From contig CM061921.1 in assembly GCA_031002005.1 (NCBI GenBank), positions 173,546,935 to 173,610,934 on the forward strand: a stretch of 64,000 nucleotides of DNA, read 5' to 3'. This document shows, piece by piece, positions 15,028 through 32,855 of the stretch. The stretch is from Vandiemenella viatica. Lineage: Eukaryota; Arthropoda; Insecta; Orthoptera; Morabidae. The notes beneath the pieces are model-generated. The model was not told the DNA's origin, ran no database searches, and worked only from the letters and a program-made list of their open reading frames with translations. The translations under genes were made by a program, and so were the position numbers. Positions within the stretch are counted from its first letter, which is position 1, and every line of letters begins with the position of its first letter.

Positions 15028-15940
15028 TATTTTTTTTTTTTTTTTTTTTTGCCATAAGTCTTTTGGCTTGAGTGAAGCAATCCTTCATATTTTTCTAACA
15101 TGAATTAACTTCTTCTTCTCAGAAATCCATTACAACCTACGTCCTAACCTACATGCTTCGCGTACGCTGTTCATTGTCTTTCATCTTAGTTATTATCTTT
15201 AATTGTTTCCCTCAGGATCAAATTCTCATTTCATGTTTCAAAAACAAGACCCCGTCGTCTGAAGTTTTTCCTCATATTCCTGCAGTTTTCCATCATTTCC
15301 ACTGTTATTAATTCTTACTTTATCCGCTCAATTAGTTTTTAACATGCCTCTACAGCCCTGTGCTTGGAATCGTTCAATTTTCTTTAGTTTTGGTATCGTC
15401 AAAAGTCCAATCGTCATTTCTATGAATCGCTCTACCTAATACATATAATTATGGAAGGTTGTTTGTGTTCCTTTGACAAATTTTTGATACATAAATGATT
15501 CTGCTTTTCAGGAAGGATCCTTTTGCTAGTGCTGTTTTGCTTTAGAGATCGCTCACGCTTCATCAATCTGTTCTATTTTTCTTTACCAAATAATAGAATT
15601 TCGTATTTCTTATAATACATCTTAATATATTTTTAAGTTTAGCGTAGTTCTTCTGTTTATCTCTGCAATTCATAACCATTATTGAGATTTTGTTGTTGCT
15701 TTGTTTACGTCATTTAATAATTTCTGGATACCTTCAATCCTATCTGCGAACATCACAATATTATGAACAAACCATAATAGGTCCATTCTATCTCCTTGAT
15801 CCATTATGACAGATTCAGATGTTTCTGTTTCTTCTTGATTGCTGCCTATACATACAAGCTGAATATTAATAGGTCAATGTGAGGTACATGAACTCATTTC
15901 TTATGGAAGTTAATGATAAATGGTTTTTGTAGAAAGTGTA
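15028..15940 (-). pseudogene. Antisense LINE relic with oligo(A) tail
   Basis: A run of 21 T at 15030-15050 is the likely minus-strand poly(A) tail. Reading upstream on the minus strand gives ALAKGSFLKSR near 15510, KLKKIERFQAQGCRGMLK near 15390 and then ADKVRINN, which follows the order of the C-terminal LINE block WRRMLKISWTDKVRNEE of RTE-like elements. Stops are frequent. The relic runs almost to the 15,943 target duplication of the 8.3-kb element, so that element may have inserted within or beside it. Clade assignment is tentative. Confidence 0.5.
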
Positions 15941-15942
15941 AT

Positions 15943-15948
15943 AAGGAC
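15943..15948. repeat. Target-site duplication AAGGAC, left
   Basis: The hexamer AAGGAC abuts the left terminus of the 8.3-kb element and is repeated exactly at 24290-24295 against the right terminus. Confidence 0.85.
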
Positions 15949-16462
15949 AGCAGCAGGAGAACGATTAGGGCTGCTTGTACCCTGCACCAAAAAAGAATAA
16001 TCGATACCCCGCGTAGGTGTTGCGATGTAACTGATACCCCCTCACTCTCCCCTCCTTATAACTGATACCCCCTCCCATTGTTCTATTGTTAGGCCTTCCC
16101 CACTAACCCCAGTTTTAGCTGCCTCCCCTCCTTGCAATCATTGAAACCCCGATTAGCTGTTCCATTGTAACTGATACCCAACACTCTGTCCTTGAAATCG
16201 ATACCACGCGCAGGTGTACCGGTGTAACTGACACCACCCATTATTCTATTGTTAGGCCTTCCTCACTAACCCCAGTTCCAGGTGCCTCCCCTCCTTGAAA
16301 TCGATACCCGCACATGTGTTCCAGTTGTAACTGATACCCACCGCGCTGACCTTGAAATCGATACCCCGCGTAGAGAACAGTTAGCGGTGTACCTAGAAAA
16401 CCAGTTTTAGTGCAGGTGGGTTAACAAAAACCGGTACTACCTACCTGGAAATGTGCTACCTA
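15949..16462 (+). repeat. Left terminal inverted repeat with modular subrepeats
   Basis: After the outer 40 bp, four modules alternate long, short, long, short. Long modules (about 105-140 bp) contain TTCTATTGTTAGGCCTTCC and CACTAACCCCAG. Short modules (about 57 bp) contain GATACCCAACACTCTG or a variant, then CCTTGAAATCGATACC. All modules start with TGTAACTGATACCC and end near GCAGGTGTTCC. The inner edge is the shared block AGAGAACAGTTAGCGGTGTA to AAATGTGCT. Confidence 0.9.
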
Positions 16463-16574
16463 AGGATAACGCGCTCGCGTGTTAACCTGAGTTACACATT
16501 GTAACATGCTGGGCTTGCCTAACCTAAAGCGCCTACAATAATCTCAATTACTGCTAAGGTGTGATGGTTGATTA

Positions 16575-16668
16575 ACCAAAAAAGAGATTAACTTTGGTGC
16601 TGAGCACCCTCTGCCACCCACAATTTTGTGAATTGCAGAGTATATATGTAGATGTAGATGTAGAAAAA
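16575..16668 (+). repeat. LINE 3' end fragment with GTAGAT tail
   Basis: TTGGTGCTGAGCACCCTCTG, then CCACCCACAATTTTGTGAAT, then GCAGAGTATATATGTAGATG closely match the 3' end of the LINE at 60.9-61.35 kb. It is a severely 5'-truncated copy ending in hexamer-like GTAGAT repeats. Confidence 0.75.
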
Positions 16669-17003
16669 CTGGGGTTAAACTCTAGCGCATCCCACACCCG
16701 TTAAATAAAATTATCGCATCACATGCGCCACAAATTTGTGAAAATAACGGTTAACCTGAGCTTACGCTAATTTATTCCACCTTCATTACATGAAGTAGAC
16801 GCTTAAAAGCGATTTTGAGTAAATGGCGCTCATAACTGTAACACCACGATCGAGATTTAACTTAGCCTTACTCAATGTGCCATTCTACAGTAAACCGAGT
16901 TACCGTTAAGATGTGATAGACTAAGCTAACTTGGTCTAACCGAATATATCTTACCCCTATATTAACCTGAGTTTAATGTAAGTTGTGTAGGTTCGTAAAC
17001 CTA

Positions 17004-17666
17004 CAAGGGGTGATCAAATGAAAAGGTACGAAACGACACGGTGGGTACAAATGTAGACTTTATTCAAAATATACACCATAAGCCTGAGCACAACGATCCC
17101 ACTGATGAACAAGCCGCAGGATTCCTAGTTCCCAGAATTCCTGTGACGAGACCCAGTCCTTCACAGCGTCCTTGAGTACGTCGTCCGAGTTGAAGCGCTT
17201 CCCTTTCAGGCGTTTCTTCATTGGTCCAAACACATGGCAATCGCAGGGCGACATGTCCGGACTGTAGGGCGGATGGTACAACGTCTCCCACTTAAACTTG
17301 GCCACTTCCATGTGTGTGACTCTGGAGACGTGTGGACGCGCGTTATCATGGAGCAGCCCCGGTCTTTTGTTCTTGATGGACCTGCGTAGGCGTCGGAGTG
17401 TCTCACAGTACACATCGAAGTTAATGGTTTTTCTGTGCTCGAGGAATCCTGTCCTCACACGGACTGCCGCATCATTTGGACGCCGCTTTTGATAAGAGAT
17501 TCTGCTCTCTACTGCACATGCGGGTGCCCGCGCATGCTCCGATCCCAGTCAGAGACTCCAATCGAATCCCGAGATGTCTCGCTACGTTTTCCCATGGCGG
17601 AATATGCAACTATTTAACTGTTACGTTTTTACGTCGTTTCGTACCTTTTCATTTAATCACCCCTTG
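17004..17666 (-). mobile_element. Internally deleted mariner with intact TIRs
   Basis: The termini are a 34-bp inverted repeat starting CAAGGGGTGATCAAATGAAA, with one mismatch between ends, flanked by TA on both sides (17002-17003 and 17667-17668). At 663 bp the element is about half the usual 1.3 kb, and the missing part is the middle of the transposase. Near-identical ends and a clean TA duplication point to a comparatively recent insertion into the 8.3-kb element. It could still be mobilised in trans by a full-length relative. Confidence 0.93.
17060..17500 (-). pseudogene. Mariner (DD34D) transposase, C-terminal part
   Basis: The catalytic domain of a cut-and-paste transposase in one open frame ending at 17060. 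It shows RTGFLEHRKTINFDVYCETL, LLHDNARPHVS with the second catalytic Asp, and HPPYSPDMSPCDCHVFG with the third. Exactly 34 residues separate the two aspartates, giving the DD34D signature. The end, RLVHQWDRCAQAYGVYFE, is the normal C-terminus. The open segment continues upstream of 17458 through RRPNDAAVRVRTGF. The first catalytic Asp and the DNA-binding N-terminus are missing, and a few residues between KNKRPG and LLHDN appear deleted. No ATG is well placed. The product would be inactive alone. Confidence 0.9.
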
Positions 17667-18284
17667 TACTAATGATAGTGATTTTAGCTATGCCTTTTGT
17701 GGGTGTTAATATGTCTGATACGTTCAGTCAGCACCTTTTATCGAATACATTGAGTTATATGATGCACAGATATGTTGTTTCCATCCTTTGCACACCCTAT
17801 CATGGTGGGAAGATTATATGTGTGGTGTATACTTATCAAATAGTTTTCCTAACCTAATGTGCCATACTACGTTAACCAGAGCATAATCTAAGTTATGATG
17901 GGTCGTGTGTATACTGATGGTTGTAGTTTTAGGTACACTTCGTTGTGTTAATGTTGGCTTCTGTGTCAGTATATCTACTGCCTGCCCCATTGATCGATGA
18001 CATCCGTAAGTTTCATCCTTTGCACTCCCTAACGGTAACGTGATGTGGTGGAGGGTCCGTGCTGGTTTCTTTTGAACTGTTGCGACTGCCGAAATATACA
18101 TTCTTGTACGTATATAACACTTTCCAGTGGCTAGTTCTGGTAATTTAACCACATCATATATTTGGGCACTGTACTCTGTGATGCACGCAGGTGTAATTGT
18201 CACGTCAACCGACGAGGGAAATTACATGAGTTTGGCTACATTTTAGGTACTTAAAGTCTCTACAAATATAACAACACCTACAAA

Positions 18285-18540
18285 TCCGCCATGCTATTAA
18301 TACCGGGCATGAAATAAAATTTCAAGAAACGAGGCTACTGTGGAGAGAAAACCAGTGGTGGCCTCGACGGGTGAGAGAGGCAGCAGAAATTTTAAAGTAT
18401 ACCAAGAAAATCAACGAAGATAGCGGCCTTTTACTCTGAGATGCTTGGCGCTTGTTGCTATGTCAACATAAACAGTATCTCTGACGAAGGCTGTAGGATA
18501 CCAGCCGAAAGCTAAGGTAATTAAATAAACAACACGGCAT
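18285..18540 (+). pseudogene. Penelope-like element, endonuclease C-terminal scrap
   Basis: The plus strand from about 18306 reads HEIKFQETRLLWRENQWW, then RRVREAAEILKYTKKIN and EDSGLLL. This is the pattern that follows the GIY-YIG core in Penelope-like retroelements (H.I.FE.T.LL...VREA.EI...NI...DG..L). A stop follows, and then the block ACGAAGGCTGTAGGATACCA and GCCGAAAGCT, typical of the region after the coding end. The reverse transcriptase and the GIY-YIG core itself are absent. It lies inside the 8.3-kb element and is presumably a later insertion. Confidence 0.55.
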
Positions 18541-18982
18541 AACCCGAAAGTCTATTAATCATGAATTTAAATAATTGATAGATTTCCATTTTTAAAAGTG
18601 TATATGTTGTGTCACATCCACAAAAAGCATTCAAAAATAATTTGTTTCTTAGAACAAGGATATTTGTCCAAGCGTTTAGTCGAATATATTTGTGTTTCCA
18701 CAATACCATTACCCATTCAAAAAAATAAAAAATAAACAAAAAAAAATTGCTGATGTGATTGAGTATGTCCTATTAAAAGAACTAGTATATCGATATCTCT
18801 TCTCCTATAACGTAGACAGTGTAGATTCTACAATGGATATCTCGAATATCAGCATCATCTCTGGCTTGTTTTATAGCGATGTTAAAAGCTTTTATTTCTT
18901 AATAAGCATTTCAATAAAGTTATTCATTAGATCGGTTCGATAAAAAAAATTCTTGGTAGATTGGCACAATCATTGTTTCATC

Positions 18983-19009
18983 AAAAAAAAAAAAAAAAAA
19001 AAAAAAAAA
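18983..19009 (+). repeat. Poly(A), 27 bases
   Basis: A pure A run with no recognisable retroposon body immediately upstream. It may mark a very short or heavily decayed plus-strand retroposon. Confidence 0.6.
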
Positions 19010-19528
19010 GACAACACTTAGTAAGACCTAGAAAATCTTAATCTTTTTACTTTAAAGCTTGAATCGTAGTAGATTTACGGTAAACTGCTGGGAGATAAAA
19101 ATATAATCAAAATGCATTTTAACAATTTCATTTAAATATCTCATTAATTTTATTAAATAAATGTGTGATATTCATAAATAAAATAATATCCATAAATAAA
19201 ATTTATTAACTAGTAAATTTTTACAGTTATTGATAATTACAATATTATTAATAAACAATTACCATTATAAATCGTACTGTCTATTGGATTTTACAGTTAA
19301 CAAATAGTACAGTAGCATTATCGTCCATACGGCTAAGCGCTCCCCTCTCTCCACGCTCTATCTCAAGATGTGTTAAACCTATTAAATATTGTCTAGGACG
19401 AAATTTGTATAGAATGTTATGCTCTACAACTTTTGTAATAACTCAAAATAATATGTAAAGTAAGCGTGATATTTGTAAAAAAAAACTATTTTTGTGACCT
19501 TTCACCCAGAATATTTTGACTAGCGTAC

Positions 19529-19717
19529 ATGAGATTCTATGTGACTTTTGAGCAAACTTATAAAATATCAAAACAACGATTTATGCAAATTTTCAGCTTG
19601 TTATTTTTCATTCCGAGGTTTAATCCATATTTAACTGGACTAATACAAGTTCCCTGTGAACTTACAAGACAACAATATGAAAAAATAAATTTAGCTTGTA
19701 ATGTGTGGTGGGCGTAA
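19529..19717 (+). pseudogene. Unassigned decayed reading frame with C-terminus duplicated
   Basis: I do not recognise this 62-codon frame. It ends PCELTRQQYEKINLACNVWW. The region from about 19640 to 19840, covering this end and about 120 bp after it, reappears at 23328-23585 in frameshifted form, directly inside the right TIR. The duplicate suggests that the 3' end of a real ancestral gene once lay next to the TIR. Whether it was a structural or replication gene of the element cannot be told. An adenine-rich 3' flank follows. Length and position alone do not show that it is expressed. Confidence 0.35.
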
Positions 19718-19886
19718 TAAAACAAATATTAATTAAATGCAATATGTATTTATTTATACTTTTCACATACAAGTAGTATCATCAATTCGTAATTACTGTA
19801 TTATTAACATCATCAGATACTAGTAAATTATTTCACGCAGTAAGTTCTTGTCTTATAAGCGTATAGTCCAATGATGAACTGGTTGT

Positions 19887-20288
19887 CTATTGAGCAACAC
19901 TAACATTATTAAAATTTATATCAATCAGTACTTGCACTGTAGCCATACGATAGTCACGTAGCATTTTAATAGCTAAAATGTCCACAAAATCTGCATAGTA
20001 TCTTAAAACTAGGTAATCCCACTTCTTCTTGACGGCCAAGGCACCGGAAACTGCGAGCTGCGCCCTGATGAGGTTCCTCTAAGACAAATCGCCTAAGAAG
20101 ACACCGCTGGTTGGGTCAATATTTGGGTAAAAACATACTATTTTCACCCCGACAACAGGTTTGATGGAGACGGTGAGCTCGCCGAGTGGAACTTCGGTCT
20201 TGTCGTATGCAGAGCTGAAGTAGTCGGAAACCACGTCCAATACTTGGATCAGCTCGATCTGTTCTTCATATGTTGGTTGTGACTCACT
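19887..20288 (-). pseudogene. Unassigned protein-coding remnant (about 133 codons, one stop)
   Basis: The minus strand is open from 20288 to the stop at 19887-19889, apart from one TAG at 20079-20081. It reads YEEQIELIQVLDVVSDYFSS, PLGELTVSIKPVVGVKIV, FYPNIDPTSGVFLGDLS, the stop, then AVSGALAVKKKWDYLVLRYY and finally VLIDINFNNVSVAQ. Base composition is distinctly more GC-rich in 20020-20280 than in its flanks, and the hydrophobic/polar alternation looks protein-like. I recognise no family. It points toward the frame ending at 19717 (convergent). It is a candidate cargo or structural gene of the 8.3-kb element. Confidence 0.45.
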
Positions 20289-20489
20289 TTATCGAGCACT
20301 AGAACTGGTACAAAATCGTGTTTAGACGATAAACTATCGTGAAACGCTTTGAATCAATAGCGTTCAGCTGATACACTGCCGAGAACAACATTACTTGACA
20401 AGGCACGATTGCAGAATTATGAAAGATCGGTTAGGAGACCATGCTCGAAAATCGGAACGGGGCTAACGATATGAACCAGTTTCAGGCAT

Positions 20490-20760
20490 CGATTTCAAGG
20501 TCAACAGTAAGCGTATCCATTACAACAGGTTTCTACCCGAGCGGAGTATCAATTACATTGTGCCGTGAAGCGTATAGCTAGATGAGGTTATAGGGGTATC
20601 GATTACACCGGAATACCTGCGTGGACTGTCAATTACAATATGCAGCGAAGTGTGAACCAATTTGAGTTTATAGGGATAACCAGATAACGACCAGGTTCTG
20701 CGAAGCAGTAAGCTATCTGAGGTTATAGAGGGTATCGATTACAATTAGGAGTGGGTTGCG
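20490..20760 (+). repeat. Internal degenerate array related to the TIR subrepeats
   Basis: GTATCAATTACATTGTGCCG, GGTATCGATTACACCGGAAT, CTGTCAATTACAATATGCAG and GGGTATCGATTACAATTAGG recur here with GATGAGGTTATAG or variants between them. The core GTATCGATTACA is shared with the right TIR in the same orientation, but the spacer words differ. It may be the eroded end of a second related element or an ancestral internal array. Confidence 0.55.
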
Positions 20761-20782
20761 TAAGAGGATTGACAGTGATAGG

Positions 20783-20925
20783 GTACGGAGACTGGTGAAC
20801 GAGCGGTAACACTATGGCCTCGCATTCAGGAAGAGGCAGCTTCGAATCCCGGTTCAAGAAACAAGATTTTAGTTTTTCAATAGTTTCCTGATGTTAGTCC
20901 AGGTGAATGCTCACTATAAATCTTG
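20783..20925 (+). repeat. SINE family A, 5' part
   Basis: The tRNA-like head GAGCGGTAACACTATGGCCT...CGAATCCCGGTTCAAG is followed by a diverged TTTTCAATAGTTTCCTGATG and CAGGTGAATGC body. It was inserted inside the 8.3-kb element and is 3'-truncated or decayed. Confidence 0.7.
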
Positions 20926-21375
20926 TCAGTATATGCGGGGAACGGGAATAGAATGAGGATTTGAATGCTAACTCATGAAATAGTGGAATGTCTGTCGATA
21001 GTTGTCACATCACCTTTTTTTTATGATCCTCGACAGTGGTGTGTGTATATGTACGTGTTACCAATTTTCTGTAAGTCCTAAAGGTATTTACATTCATAGT
21101 TTGTGTTCGACGACTTTCTTAGCTTGTTCTTGCAGTTCATAAAAACATTGGATATGTACCAATCCCCGACAATATGCATTTGTAACCGCTGATTCTACAG
21201 GAAGTATGCAATCTTCCATTTTCCTACTAACTGCGCTCTGTACCGCCTTGTTTTGGGATAAGAACTGTCCCACATTGCGTTGTTCACAATGTGCCCTTTG
21301 GGGGTTGCACACGAGATCGGTTTAAACTTCGGAACAGACTAGTACACTGGCACTGATGAAAAATTTCACAAATGA

Positions 21376-21639
21376 TCTAACATCTACAACTTAGCGGAAG
21401 TTATCTTCGGTGAATTCCTGTATCGGGACAGTAGAGATTTTAAAATCAGTGTAAAGTGGAACATTTTTACGCGTTTTGACAGTCAACCAGCTGAAGAGAG
21501 AAGTTTAGATCACCTATTTACAGCATCGAGAGTGTTTAAAGGCTTCTTTGCACATGCCAAAACGCAATACTATAGGATTGTTAGCCATGACAAAGACGGA
21601 GTGCGTGGCAAATCGAAACTCCTTTATTTTTTAATGTGA
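21376..21639 (+). pseudogene. Unassigned open frame, 87 codons, no ATG start
   Basis: The plus strand is open between TGA (21373) and TGA (21637-21639). It includes EVIFGEFLYRDSRDFKISVK, WNIFTRFDSQPAEERSLDHL and RVFKGFFAHAKTQYYRIVSH. The residue mix looks like a globular protein rather than random AT-rich translation, but I recognise no family. With the frames at 19.5-20.3 kb it may be part of the original gene content of the 8.3-kb element. It could also be chance; no start codon or splice sites are evident. Confidence 0.3.
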
Positions 21640-21819
21640 ATAACTATTCGAGGAATCCTAGCCAAAATTATATGAAAAAATTGGCTACAAGTAAAATCTC
21701 ATCCCTTCATACCTGTACAAACACTTAACGTGTTTTTCATTGTCAATTTTTCGCAGTTACTGTAGGCTATTAACGGCTACTTGTGTCTAAAGTACTACTG
21801 CAACCGATACTAATGAACA

Positions 21820-22620
21820 GTCGGACCGGGAATCAAACTCTCCACCTCTCACATGACAGTCTCAATCGTTAAAAACTCACCCACCAGGTTCGATATTTTC
21901 ATTGGCATATAAAACGTAACTCTAAAAGGACGACGAATAACCCCATTACTCGCTTCGAGTGATTTTTGGGGAATGAAAGAAAATCGGAATGTAAAGCCGT
22001 GCTGCAAATCCTCACGAACGATAGATCGGAACGTTACTGCTCACCCACCATGCTGGATACTCTATGGTCCTCTTATATTTCGACATCCGATACACGTTTC
22101 CGATGATAGTAATAGCGTCACTATCTTTAACTTTATATAGCTAACGGTCAAACTGTTAGAAATAACACTGTGTAATATCTTTCGCAGTGATATTAAGAGA
22201 TACTACAGCACGAATATAAATCCATCACTCGTAAAGTTTGTGGAATGGTGGGAGGAGGATAAGCCAGTCGTCTCTATGTATTCAATATAACGTGCTTCTC
22301 CATCAACTGCTTATTCATTACTTTGCTTTGAAAACTCAACCACCAGGCTAGATGTTCAGAACGGCATACAAGAAATAACTCTGAAAAGATGGCGAATGGA
22401 ATGCACTGAAGAGAGAACCCGCGGTCTCCAGTATTACAGTCCTGAACATTAAAAACTCACCAACTAGGCTCGATATCTAGACCAGCATACACAAATTAAC
22501 TCTGAAACGTGGACGAATATAATGCACTGGAATTATTACTGTACTCGCCTCGAGTGATTTTGGGAAAAGATAGAAAACTTGACTGTAAGACTGTGCTGGA
22601 TATTGTACCCCGGTGACGGA
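21820..22620 (-). repeat. tRNA-derived repeat (family D) in three partial copies
   Basis: The block AAAAACTCACCMACYAGGYT, followed by CGATATCTAGACCAGCATAC-like sequence and TTAACTCTGAAACGTGGACG, occurs near 21874, 22328 and 22447. The last two are 119 bases apart as a tandem duplication. Left of the first copy, CCGGGAATCAAACTCTCCAC read on the minus strand is a tRNA-like B box (GGTTTGATTCCCGG type) with an A-box-like GGTGGGTGAG. Confidence 0.6.
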
Positions 22621-22883
22621 ATTTCTTCCACAAACCGTTCTTTGGTCTTTCGAGATCTCACGTTTTCTCCTATAAGAATTTTAACAATAATCTGTTCTTC
22701 AAATCTAACATGCACTTCTAATTTTCTGTTAAACAAATAGCGCTTCCTGTTAGTTGACGAACCAAATTCTTGTATTTTGTTTCATTCATAATTCACTAAA
22801 ATTTAAATTCCTTATTTTTAATGCCCTTAGTTTTTCTTAAACTTGTATTGGATATAGGGTAGCTAGTTCCTTCCTTACATATA

Positions 22884-23045
22884 TTACTTAAGGGCACTTG
22901 CAGTTTAACGCGGAATCCGAATCATGGAATACTTTACAGCAAGCTATGTTACAGGTTTATGAGTATTCACCAGCGATATAGGAATTCAAACAGGGAATCT
23001 TTCAGTTTCAAGTCAGACGCCTTAACCACTGAGTCGCTCTGGCGC
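22884..23045 (-). repeat. SINE family B
   Basis: Read on the minus strand, a tRNA-like head (AGCGACTCAGTGGTTAAGGC near the right edge and a CCCTGTTTGAATTCC B box) is followed by a body ending GCGTTAAACTGCAAGTGCCC at the left edge. Related copies lie near 39568, 46630 and 52610. A short second piece with CATAAGGGCACCTACAAATT lies at about 23265-23310. Confidence 0.65.
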
Positions 23046-23327
23046 TAAAAACACTGTAATTATGTGAGATCCTTTTGTAGCAACATGAAATTATTGCCAT
23101 ATGATTTGCCTAGATGGAATTAAAATATCGACTTTATATCTGGAACTCTTGGAGCATACGGGGAAAAATAGATTAGTTTAAGTTTATAGTTGGAACTTTC
23201 CTGAATGAAATATGCTCAGCCTTGAATTGGAACAAGGGTGGCCAGTTTCTTTGCTCCTTACCTTACATAAGGGCACCTACAAATTAACGTAGAATCCGAA
23301 CAAAGAAGCTTTCAGGAAAAGATTTAG

Positions 23328-23585
23328 GATGTCTGTCCCTATGAGAACTAAAGGAAATAATTTGAATAAACTTTGTAATGCAATATGTGCTGTTGAATAT
23401 GTATTTTTAACTCTCAATTGTGGATGTAATAAAAAAATAAATCAAATTAAATACAATGTGTTTTTACATACAGACACCAAAATTTATTTATTATTATCAA
23501 ACATCAATTCTTGAACTATAAGTCATTACAAGGTTGAATGTTCTAATTCATAATTACTATATTACTAATATCAGCCAAAGGGCGC
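23328..23585 (+). repeat. Direct-repeat partner of 19640-19840
   Basis: GTAATAAAA...AAATTAAATACAATGTG and AATTCATAATTACTATATTA correspond to GTAATAAAACAAATATTAAT...AAATGCAATATG and AATTCGTAATTACTGTATTA at 19.7-19.8 kb. This copy abuts the inner edge of the right TIR. Its upstream frame is shifted relative to the first copy. Confidence 0.6.
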
Positions 23586-23639
23586 GAGTCGACTAGCCAA
23601 GCGTAAATACGTGATTTTCTTACCCCAGTATGGTAACAA

Positions 23640-24289
23640 GATACGGCCGCACGTTTCCAGCTAGGGAGAACAGGTTTTTGTACTCCCGCCAGCACTAAAA
23701 ACTTGTTTTCCACATATACCACCAACTGTTCTCTGCGCGGGGTATCTGTTTCCAGGTCAGCGTGGTGGGTATCAATTACACTGGAACACCTGTATGGGGT
23801 ATCGATTTGACGGAGGGGAGGCCGCTGGGTCTAGGGTTAGTGGGGAAGGCCTAACAATTGAACAATGGGGGGGTATCAGTTACAACGGAACAGCTGCGCG
23901 GGGTATCGATTTCAATGTCAGCGTGTTGGGTATCAGTTACAGTGGAACACCTGTTCGGGGTATCGATTTCAAGGAGGGAGGCAGCTAGCACTAGGGTTAG
24001 TGGGGAAGGCCGAACAATAGAACAATGGTAGGGGGTATTAGTTAGATGGAGGGGAGGGGAAAAGTGTATCAATTACACAGAAATACCTGCTCGAGGTATG
24101 CATTTCAAGGAGGGAGGCAGCTGAATCTGGGGTTAGCGGGGAAGGCAGGTGGCCTAACAATAGACAATAGAGGGGGTATCAGTTACAAGGATGGGAGGGA
24201 GTTATCACTTACATCGGAACACCTGCTTGGCGTATCGAATAGACTTATTGGTCCAGGATACTAGCCGTCCTAATCGTTCTCCTACTACT
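23640..24289 (-). repeat. Right terminal inverted repeat, one extra module
   Basis: The inverted counterpart of 15949-16462. Read inward from the right end it has modules long, long, short, long, short, so it has one more long module than the left end, which accounts for most of the 136-bp length difference. The outer end (AGTAGTAGGAGAACGATTAG) and inner edge (AGAGAACAGTTGGTGGTATA ... AAACGTGCGG) both match the left TIR. Confidence 0.9.
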
Positions 24290-24295
24290 AAGGAC
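24290..24295. repeat. Target-site duplication AAGGAC, right
   Basis: Exact copy of the hexamer at 15943-15948, immediately outside the right terminus. Confidence 0.85.
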
Positions 24296-24304
24296 TTTCG
24301 AGAA

Positions 24305-24480
24305 TTGGGAGAGTGACTGAAGATTGATTTTTAACAATCTGGAAGACGCCGGTTAGAATCCGCGTCCGGGCATTCCGATTTGGGTTTTCCATGGTTTCCC
24401 AAAATCACTTCAGACGAATGCAGGGATGCTTCCTTCAAAAAGGCCATGGCCCAATTCCTTCCTGTTGATTGATTTTGGTG
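24305..24480 (+). repeat. SINE family A
   Basis: A degenerate head with CCGGTTAGAATCCGCGTCCG as B box, then GGGTTTTCCATGGTTTCCCA, AAATCACTTCAGACGAATGC, GGATGCTTCCTTCAAAAAGG and GGCCCAATTCCTTCC. The body is well preserved and the head is decayed. Confidence 0.85.
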
Positions 24481-30704: not shown

Positions 30705-32855
30705 GGACTAATAAAAGCTGCAGCGAATAGAGCCATCCTACGAGGCTTCAGAAAAGACAATATTCTAGGATGGAGTGAGGAGTCAAGTAGACTTAGAGAA
30801 GAATTTGAGGGAAACAGCTCTCATAGTAGGCAATAGAGCTGCTAGAATCACTTGACCATGTAGAAGCGATAAATGTATAAAAAATCTTAAAAATTTGAAA
30901 TTTACCCATTCCAGTAGAAAAGCCTGGTCTGTTATTCGTAAATTAGATCCTACATCAATACCTTGAAGGACACACTCATCCATTAATGTGGAATCAGTAG
31001 CAAACCCCAAGGTTTAAAGACCCTTCGAAATGGTAAAACTGCAGGATTAGATGGGATTCGTCCAGAACTATTGAAAAACTGTGGACCAGCTACATCCGTT
31101 GGCTTGCCTCATTCTTCAGTTCCATACTACAATCTGGAAGGTTTCCTCAGATCTTCAAGCGAACAAAAATCATTTCTTTACTCAAACCAGGAAAAGATCC
31201 AACTTTACAACAAAGTTACCGTCTGATAGCTTTACTCAATGTCACTTACAAATTAATGGAAAGAATTATATTGAACAGAATAGCTCCTGCAGTCGAAGCT
31301 ATGATCCCCTTTGAACAAGCTGGATTCCGTCCCAGTAGGGACTGTAGTGATCAGGTCCTGTCTCTTACCACCTACTTGGAAGTAGGTTATCATAAGAAAA
31401 TGAAGAACGTATCTGTATTCCTAGATCTTTCGGCAGCATATGATACAGTTTCGAGAGAGGGTCTCCTTCTCAAACTGATCCAAGCAGTTCCTCGCATTAA
31501 AATAATTTCTTTACTTGGAAAACATTTAAGTAATCGCCTGTTCCAGGTGCATGCTGAGTTCAGCAGGAGCAGATTTCAAAAGCTAAATAACGGTCTACCA
31601 CAAGGCTCGGTTCACCCCCCTATACTTTTCAATTTATATACTCATGACCTGCCAGACACGGTCTCTCGCAAATTTGTATATGCTGATGACTTCCATCTTA
31701 CAGTGCAAAGAACTAACTTCGTGGAGGCTTAGGAAATCCTGACTCATGATCTTCAGGAAATGGATTCCTACTTTCGAAGGTGGCGCCTTCAACCCAATCC
31801 ACAGAAACCAGAAGTAGCTACATTCCATTTTAGCAACAAAGAAATTAACTACCACCCAAATATAATGTTCAGAGACCAGATGCTGAAGTATAACAGCACC
31901 CCAAAATACCTGGGTGTGACATTAGACAGGTCCCTATCCTACAAAAGGCACCTGCAGAATACAGCTGCCAAGCTTAAAAGTCGGAAACACTTCAGCTACT
32001 GGCAGGAACTTCATGGGGAGCTGATGCAAATACATTAAGAACAACAACCGTAGCCTTGGTTTACTCCACAGCTGAATACTGCTCCAGCATACGGCTTAGT
32101 AGCTCTCACACCCAGTATGTGGACGTTCAACTTCGCCATACAATGCGCATTATAACTGGCTCGCTTCTATCTACAACTATTTAGTGGCTGCCTGTTCTCA
32201 GCAACCTCACACCACCTCATATCAGAAGGCAAAAGGTTCTAATTAAACTATGGTCGAGAATTTTGAACAATGAGGCTCTTCCCATCCATGGAGATGTTAG
32301 GTAATACAGCTGAAGTCACGTCGCCCTGCCTGGAAGACTGCTGTCAGTCTAGCATCTAACTCCTTCAGCCCTACAGATAGCTGGTCAGCGGAATGGGCAT
32401 CAACACCACAGGGCATAGTGCAAATTACCAATCCCTTCTCAAAACTACCAGGATTCAACTTACCGCGGTAAATTTGGTGTAAATTATAGATGTGGTATGA
32501 GAAAAAAAACTGCTGCAACTCTCCACACCTGGATTTGGGCAGATTCTCCGTACTGTGACCACGGTGAGGCTTTACAAACTGTGTCACACGTTGTGCAGGA
32601 CTGTCCACTGCGTGCCTTTAGTGGTTGTCTGGAAGACCTAAATTTGGCTACGCCGGAGGCGGTGGCCTGGTTGGAGCGCATCGACGTCATGTTGTAGTGG
32701 TTGTTACTGGAGATCCTGTCTCACTGGCCAGATGCGGGCATTGTCCGCTGAACTATGCGTATATATGTGTGTTCAGATTGTTCATTGAATACAATATAAT
32801 TGTAATTGAATTGTGTAAATGTCTTATAGCATCACACACAAAATAAAATAAAAAA
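30705..32855 (+). mobile_element. Non-LTR retrotransposon, 5'-truncated, inactive
   Basis: The element starts in the linker between endonuclease and reverse transcriptase (AAANRAILRGFRKDNILGW near 30718; FTHSSRKAWSVIRKLDPTS near 30900). It continues through the polymerase and a cysteine-containing C-terminus to the stop at 32695-32697, and ends in an ATAAA-rich tail near 32850. It belongs to the jockey/CR1-type assemblage that shares the LSAAYDTV and PKYLGVTLDR motifs. The endonuclease is missing, as expected for a truncated insertion. Frame breaks occur near 31090, a TAG at 31730-31732 and others after 32036. Confidence 0.85.
31094..32697 (+). pseudogene. Reverse transcriptase of the 30.7-kb LINE
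   Basis: From about 31094 one frame reads FKRTKIISLLKPGKDPTLQQ, YRLIALLNVTYKLMERII, FEQAGFRPSRDCSDQVLSL, VFLDLSAAYDTV, NNGLPQGSVHPPILFNLYTH and FVYADDFHL. The YADD catalytic box at 31679-31690 is intact. A single TAG (31730-31732) interrupts this frame before RRWRLQPNPQKPEVATFHF and KYLGVTLDRSLSYKRHL. After 32038 it resumes shifted with TVALVYSTAEYCSS, a stop and WLPVLSNLTPPHIRR. The C-terminal piece (32497-32697) has WADSPYCDHGEALQTVSHVV and DCPLRAF, the zinc-knuckle-like tail. The polymerase core is well preserved, so this insertion is younger than the 4.8-kb LINE. Confidence 0.88.

Follow-up and report, generated by a model that had tools for sequence, protein, structure and literature searches.

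A gene-poor 8.3-kb insertion in Vandiemenella viatica is very probably a copy of a composite non-autonomous Maverick family

We analysed a 64,000-nt window of the Vandiemenella viatica genome (3.72 Gb; assembly GCA_031002005.1, contig CM061921.1), which contains a discrete insertion of 8,341 bp at positions 15949–24289. Very probably, this element is one dead, old copy of a composite, non-autonomous family of Mavericks (Polintons). A first-pass annotation of the same DNA had proposed a non-autonomous or heavily deleted Maverick; the Maverick reading is supported because the core of the terminal inverted repeats (TIRs), the AGT-type ends and the 6-bp duplications are shared with polB-type and capsid-bearing copies in the same genome. 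Most work on Mavericks concerns full-length virus-like genomes and the fossils of these. The existence of a large, gene-poor family with Maverick ends suggests that the Maverick replication machinery is open to parasitism, and it narrows down the sequences needed in cis. We found no paper under phrases such as non-autonomous Mavericks or Polintons in the open literature, which does not imply absence from print.

That 15949–24289 is a real insertion is confirmed by observation. Its ends had been described as inverted copies flanked exactly by AAGGAC, and terminal complementarity, the duplication and the edges of similarity all agree with that description. The outermost 45 bases (15949–15993 versus 24245–24289) are 82% complementary without a gap, and the longest inverted match pairs 16004–16456 with 24099–23649 (82% over 456 bases). 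Across their first 260 bp the two ends share 80% identity (198/247), and the copy is therefore old. Both TIRs consist of repeated modules, and the termini read AGTAGT on the right and AGCAGC on the left. Allowing two mismatches, GGAGAACGATTAGG matches the window at the two element ends only, with 0.21 matches expected. From base composition, the chance of a 6-mer match such as AAGGAC is 3.5e-4, and equally spaced matches occur at 29 of 55,647 window positions. In comparisons with 15 other loci, the left edge of similarity falls in the 100-base bin containing 15949 and the right edge in the bin containing 24289; only L014 and L018 match beyond these edges, at 15700–15900, which is a repeat of the left flank. 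Just beyond the right end, at 24335–24466, lies a very common short interspersed element (SINE)-like repeat, matched away from the window by 38 of 40 scored places.

The TIR is abundant in the genome. The left 152 bases gave at least 54 matches (40 of 110 candidates scored), and a 31-base core of the TIR, at most three mismatches being allowed, matched 174 places (92 forward, 82 reverse), whereas its reversed control matched 0. All counts of TIRs and family members are lower bounds, with 100 of the 174 core places listed. Five of 20 stretches fetched around the first matches also contained another end in opposite orientation (L010, L012, L016, L018 and L019). With the window, these gave six end pairs, and five more were chosen by eye among the 100 listed core places. 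Duplications were scored by script, with the terminus picked from its motif alone. An exact 6-bp duplication was found in 6 of the 11 pairs: AAGGAC in the window, CTTGCC in L018, AACGTA in L019, ATATAA in C6315, GATGGA at C8:11380129 and GGAATA at C8:189727894. A further pair, C2541, agreed at 5 of 6 bases. The expectation of 6-bp duplications at other copies was thus borne out in these pairs and failed by script in the remaining four, which are taken up below. Of 80 ends (L031–L050 and L055–L114), 62 had AGTAG no more than 115 bases outward of the core, with AGTAGT in 11 and AGTAGA in 41 (raw counts without shuffle control).

These data bear on whether the insertion is one element at all or, instead, satellite-like repeats facing each other by chance with an accidental AAGGAC. 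TIR-like modules do also occur internally, and many TIR matches lacked a second end in the fetched stretches. However, about 4e-4 exact duplications would be expected per pair, versus six in 11 pairs, and similarity breaks off sharply at the element ends. We rejected chance pairing, whose probability we consider negligible, on the strength of the duplications in other pairs; the genome search did not produce the outcome that the first-pass annotation had named as a refutation, lone or satellite-like TIRs and no conserved duplication.

Two pairs with the same TIR are spaced 19.4 and 19.9 kb apart. The 19.9-kb C6315 copy has the shared TIR core, AGTAG ends and the ATATAA duplication. Its left-end 3.5-kb piece (L051) shares 79–81% nucleotide identity across 1.5 kb with DNA running into a PF03175 polymerase in two other copies, and its right-end 3.5-kb piece (L052) encodes a capsid C-terminus (double-jelly-roll, DJR, 9.8e-40). 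DJR capsid matches also accompany the same modular TIR in L025 (1.6e-56) and stand beside it in L022 (1.9e-33, with a phospholipase-like match). In L013, DNA adjoining the TIR is 86% identical to the polB region. Maverick-type genes are numerous in this genome: PF03175 gave 1,591 first-look candidates (91 scored) and the DJR capsid family PF21738 gave 3,975 (126 scored); the scored candidates include long open frames.

The shared features are those described for Mavericks elsewhere. According to PMC8097293, the commonest end motif in vertebrate Mavericks is (AGT)2//(ACT)2, and intact vertebrate copies have 6-bp duplications, TIRs of 46–1,447 bp and lengths of 12.7–24.6 kb; PMC10045372 likewise gives 6 bp for the Polinton duplication. 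The window element is alike in its 6-bp duplication, AGT-type end motif and TIRs of 508 and 641 bp, which fall within that range, and in that related, gene-bearing copies contain polB-type and DJR capsid sequence. It is unlike autonomous Mavericks in length, in its tandem-module TIRs, in its interior segment (segment B) and inner second Maverick end, and in that no working core gene was found in it. That it is shorter than usual and lacks recognisable replication and capsid genes had been remarked before and stands: searches with polB and DJR capsid pieces at E 1e-4 gave no match to it, and we found in it neither a working gene for polymerase, integrase or capsid nor a packaging ATPase.

An undescribed long-TIR transposon, the other possibility raised earlier, is disfavoured. 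Candidates would be P-superfamily elements of the Foldback or Galileo kind, or an element resembling Ginger2 or IS3EU. Long, internally repetitive TIRs of variable length are indeed typical of Galileo as described in PMC3573991, and Ginger2 is described in PMC2836005 as targeting 6-bp AT-rich sites. However, Galileo has 7-bp flanking sequences (PMC3573991) versus 6 bp here, and the ends given for Ginger2 (TGTNR; PMC2836005) and IS3EU (mostly TA..TA) differ from the AGT type. Above all, this TIR core is also found around Maverick genes, including those of the 19.9-kb copy, and we rejected an unrelated transposon, a very improbable explanation, on that ground.

Several observations weigh against reading the element as a Maverick derivative that moved with help from its relatives. 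Four of the 11 end pairs lacked a duplication by script: L012 and L016 agreed at 3 of 6 bases each, C5:16536341 agreed at 2 of 6 and has flanks that are inverted copies of one another, and L010 was not callable. Inspection by eye suggests GATACC for L010 and, with less certainty, TAAGAA for L012. The search with joined flanks was swamped by the SINE-like repeat of the right flank and gave no spanning match; no empty site was observed. Two translated polB-side pieces of L051 had no Pfam match, and the polB call there rests on nucleotide identity. Profile searches of longer copies, which had been suggested as a check, recovered the DJR capsid in L025, L022 and L052; the PF03175 match in L013 (23.3 bits) and the Pox_A32 match of the L025 ATPase (22.3 bits versus a cut-off of 22.8) fell under their cut-offs. 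Neither L013 nor L025 showed an AGTAG terminus outside the core in the bases examined. An integrase was not confirmed by Pfam at any TIR-linked locus (no rve match). One region, L025:2168–2794, is a candidate Maverick integrase by its looks and gave only a weak chromo match, no rve match and no PDB match. Two L025 pieces compared with PDB sequences found nothing, and a PHROGs search gave weak matches of unknown function only. The 5.2-kb end pair at C5:16536341 and C5:16541594 (L039 and L040), with its inverted flanks, points either to inverted duplication or to misassembly.

The interior of the window element points to a composite history (Table 1). On sequence comparison, its arms derive from Maverick DNA, the left from post-polB DNA and the right from the capsid side, with a broken accessory gene between them. 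This accessory gene remnant has further matching pieces in two other frames, and together with the adjoining TIR-like modules it resembles a second Maverick end. As a refinement, about 2 kb of the element is read as later insertion, comprising a nested mariner and the stretch near 18300–19600. We considered the mariner open reading frame as the element's own enzyme and rejected it, as it sits in a nested element with inverted ends of its own.

Table 1 Features of the window element and its target-site duplication
Feature	Position	Strand	Evidence or remark
Left target-site duplication AAGGAC	15943..15948	.	Terminus chosen by motif
Left modular TIR, terminus AGCAGCAGGAG	15949..16456	+	508 bp; module matches
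Left arm, like DNA downstream of polB, between convergent polB matches	16453..18255 (16453–16790 and 17672–18255, nested mariner between)	+	70–86% over 39–293-base pieces
Nested mariner-like element, 36-base inverted ends, transposase piece at 17060–17548	17002..17668	-	DDE_3 5.1e-7
Stretch common to 0 of 15 other loci, 27-A run at 18983–19009	18300..19600 (approximate)	.	Read as later insertion
Frame-broken copy of Maverick accessory gene	19785..20451	-	56% amino acid identity over 162 residues; 72.5% nucleotide identity over 663
Internal TIR-like modules, oriented as right TIR	20485..20743	+	Module matches
Interior segment B, multicopy, unseen in six gene-bearing pieces	21500..23525	+	Sequence comparison
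Capsid-side subterminal DNA continuing into right TIR	23372..23754	+	69.8% to L052 (C6315 copy) over 387 bases
Right modular TIR, outward-strand terminus AGTAGTAGGAG	23649..24289	-	641 bp; 136-base tandem unit
Right target-site duplication AAGGAC	24290..24295	.	Terminus chosen by motif

This interior is common to 10 other fetched TIR loci, and its order (broken accessory gene, internal TIR-like block, segment B) recurs at other TIR loci. We compared this with the possibility that a once-autonomous Maverick lost its genes at this site alone, which would suit the presence of sequences from both Maverick sides and the age of a copy whose ends are 80% alike. The recurrence of the same interior order speaks against it, as does L012, a second two-ended copy of 7.5 kb that is collinear with the window element in inverse orientation, and we regard single-site deletion as improbable. 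Of the earlier proposal of a deleted Maverick, the Maverick origin is retained and the single deleted copy is not: the element is more than that because its interior is common to 10 other TIR loci and because six gene-bearing pieces (L022, L025 and L051–L054) showed no segment B.

A 701-base segment B probe returned 995 first-look candidates, of which 40 were scored. Among these, 17 had a listed TIR core within 12 kb, versus about 0.001 expected per copy, and 15, the window's included, had one 1.9–3.9 kb downstream on the opposite strand. By these comparisons segment B is multicopy, and in those 15 copies its placement relative to the TIR is fixed. The accessory gene has an open 261-codon frame at L053:137–919, next to the TIR in the 19.4-kb copy, and remnants in the window, L009, L012, L014, L016–L019, L021, L024, L026 and L028, being present twice in L009 and in L021. 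Across 20 alignments, mismatches at codon positions 1, 2 and 3 were 0.207, 0.191 and 0.317, and this third-position excess indicates that the gene once coded for protein. Two copies of the accessory protein had no match at E 1e-3 in a large protein collection; the L053 protein had no Pfam match and no relative among viral contigs; and the L016 copy gave only weak matches to PDB sequences, to proteins taken as unrelated. Near the accessory gene, within the 19.4-kb copy, lies a THAP-domain frame (L053:1334–1714, 4.9e-10).

As a composite non-autonomous Maverick, the element retains the parts that act in cis, namely the AGT-type terminus, modular TIR and subterminal DNA, and a gene-bearing Maverick of the same genome would supply a protein-primed DNA polymerase and an integrase in trans. 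A jump back at the terminal AGT repeat could yield a linear copy, which would then integrate through a 6-bp staggered cut; according to PMC8097293, jumping-back during protein-primed replication is the expected role of Maverick end repeats. The layout of the composite, from left to right, is post-polB DNA, an inner capsid-side end (accessory gene and TIR modules), segment B and the outer capsid-side end. An analogy is offered by large retrotransposon derivatives (LARDs), which likewise have a long non-coding interior between functional ends and are thought to be mobilised in trans (PMC6431247). Unlike the window element, with its AGT-type ends and TIRs, LARDs are long terminal repeat elements that use reverse transcription.

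The ends carry a further repeat. In 46 of the 80 ends, the AGT terminus is followed by one or more units of ~31 bp, each with a variable tag of ~10 bases. Tags flanking the innermost spacer agreed at 7.84 of 10 bases, a value reached by 0 of 2,000 shuffles, versus 6.37 between ends. This test used 43 of the 46 ends, L044, L072, L094, L108 and L114 (three of them with units) having been dropped as near-duplicates; the 43 are not all independent, as they include both ends of five single copies, and L078 is apparently spurious and L070 incomplete. By eye, both ends of one copy carry the same tag in several pairs.

Gene neighbourhoods also follow a pattern. Within 20 kb, neighbouring polB matches were convergent in 13 of 13 pairs, and neighbouring DJR matches were divergent in five of seven and same-strand in two (all five opposite-strand pairs being divergent). 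When polB neighboured DJR, the two lay on the same strand with DJR downstream (10 of 10). Ten of the 13 polB midpoints were fetched (loci in L115–L129): seven were palindromes through the centre, one had arms with a 109-base spacer and two had no palindrome to speak of. The five DJR midpoints, all fetched, comprised one palindrome, one with a spacer and three with none. Assembly error is possible for these palindromes, mainly in short contigs; those at C7:103.09M, C7:264.54M and C6490:180.03M are chromosomal. The midpoint L120 (C6:27.76M) bears TIR modules like those of the window element.

A tentative explanation, less likely than not, is that end exchange and snap-back copying take place in the Mavericks of this genome and give rise to palindromic half-genomes and to passenger elements such as the one in the window, with the family recording protein-primed remaking of ends. 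Ends may be recognised by their tags, which would then serve as addresses. Defective adenovirus genomes arise in comparable fashion. If true, tag repeats and palindromic halves would form a genomic record of protein-primed end copying, readable from sequence alone.

Across the window, an Rfam scan gave nothing at gathering scores, and outside the element a reverse transcriptase fragment was found at 31037–31732 (RVT_1, 1.5e-25).

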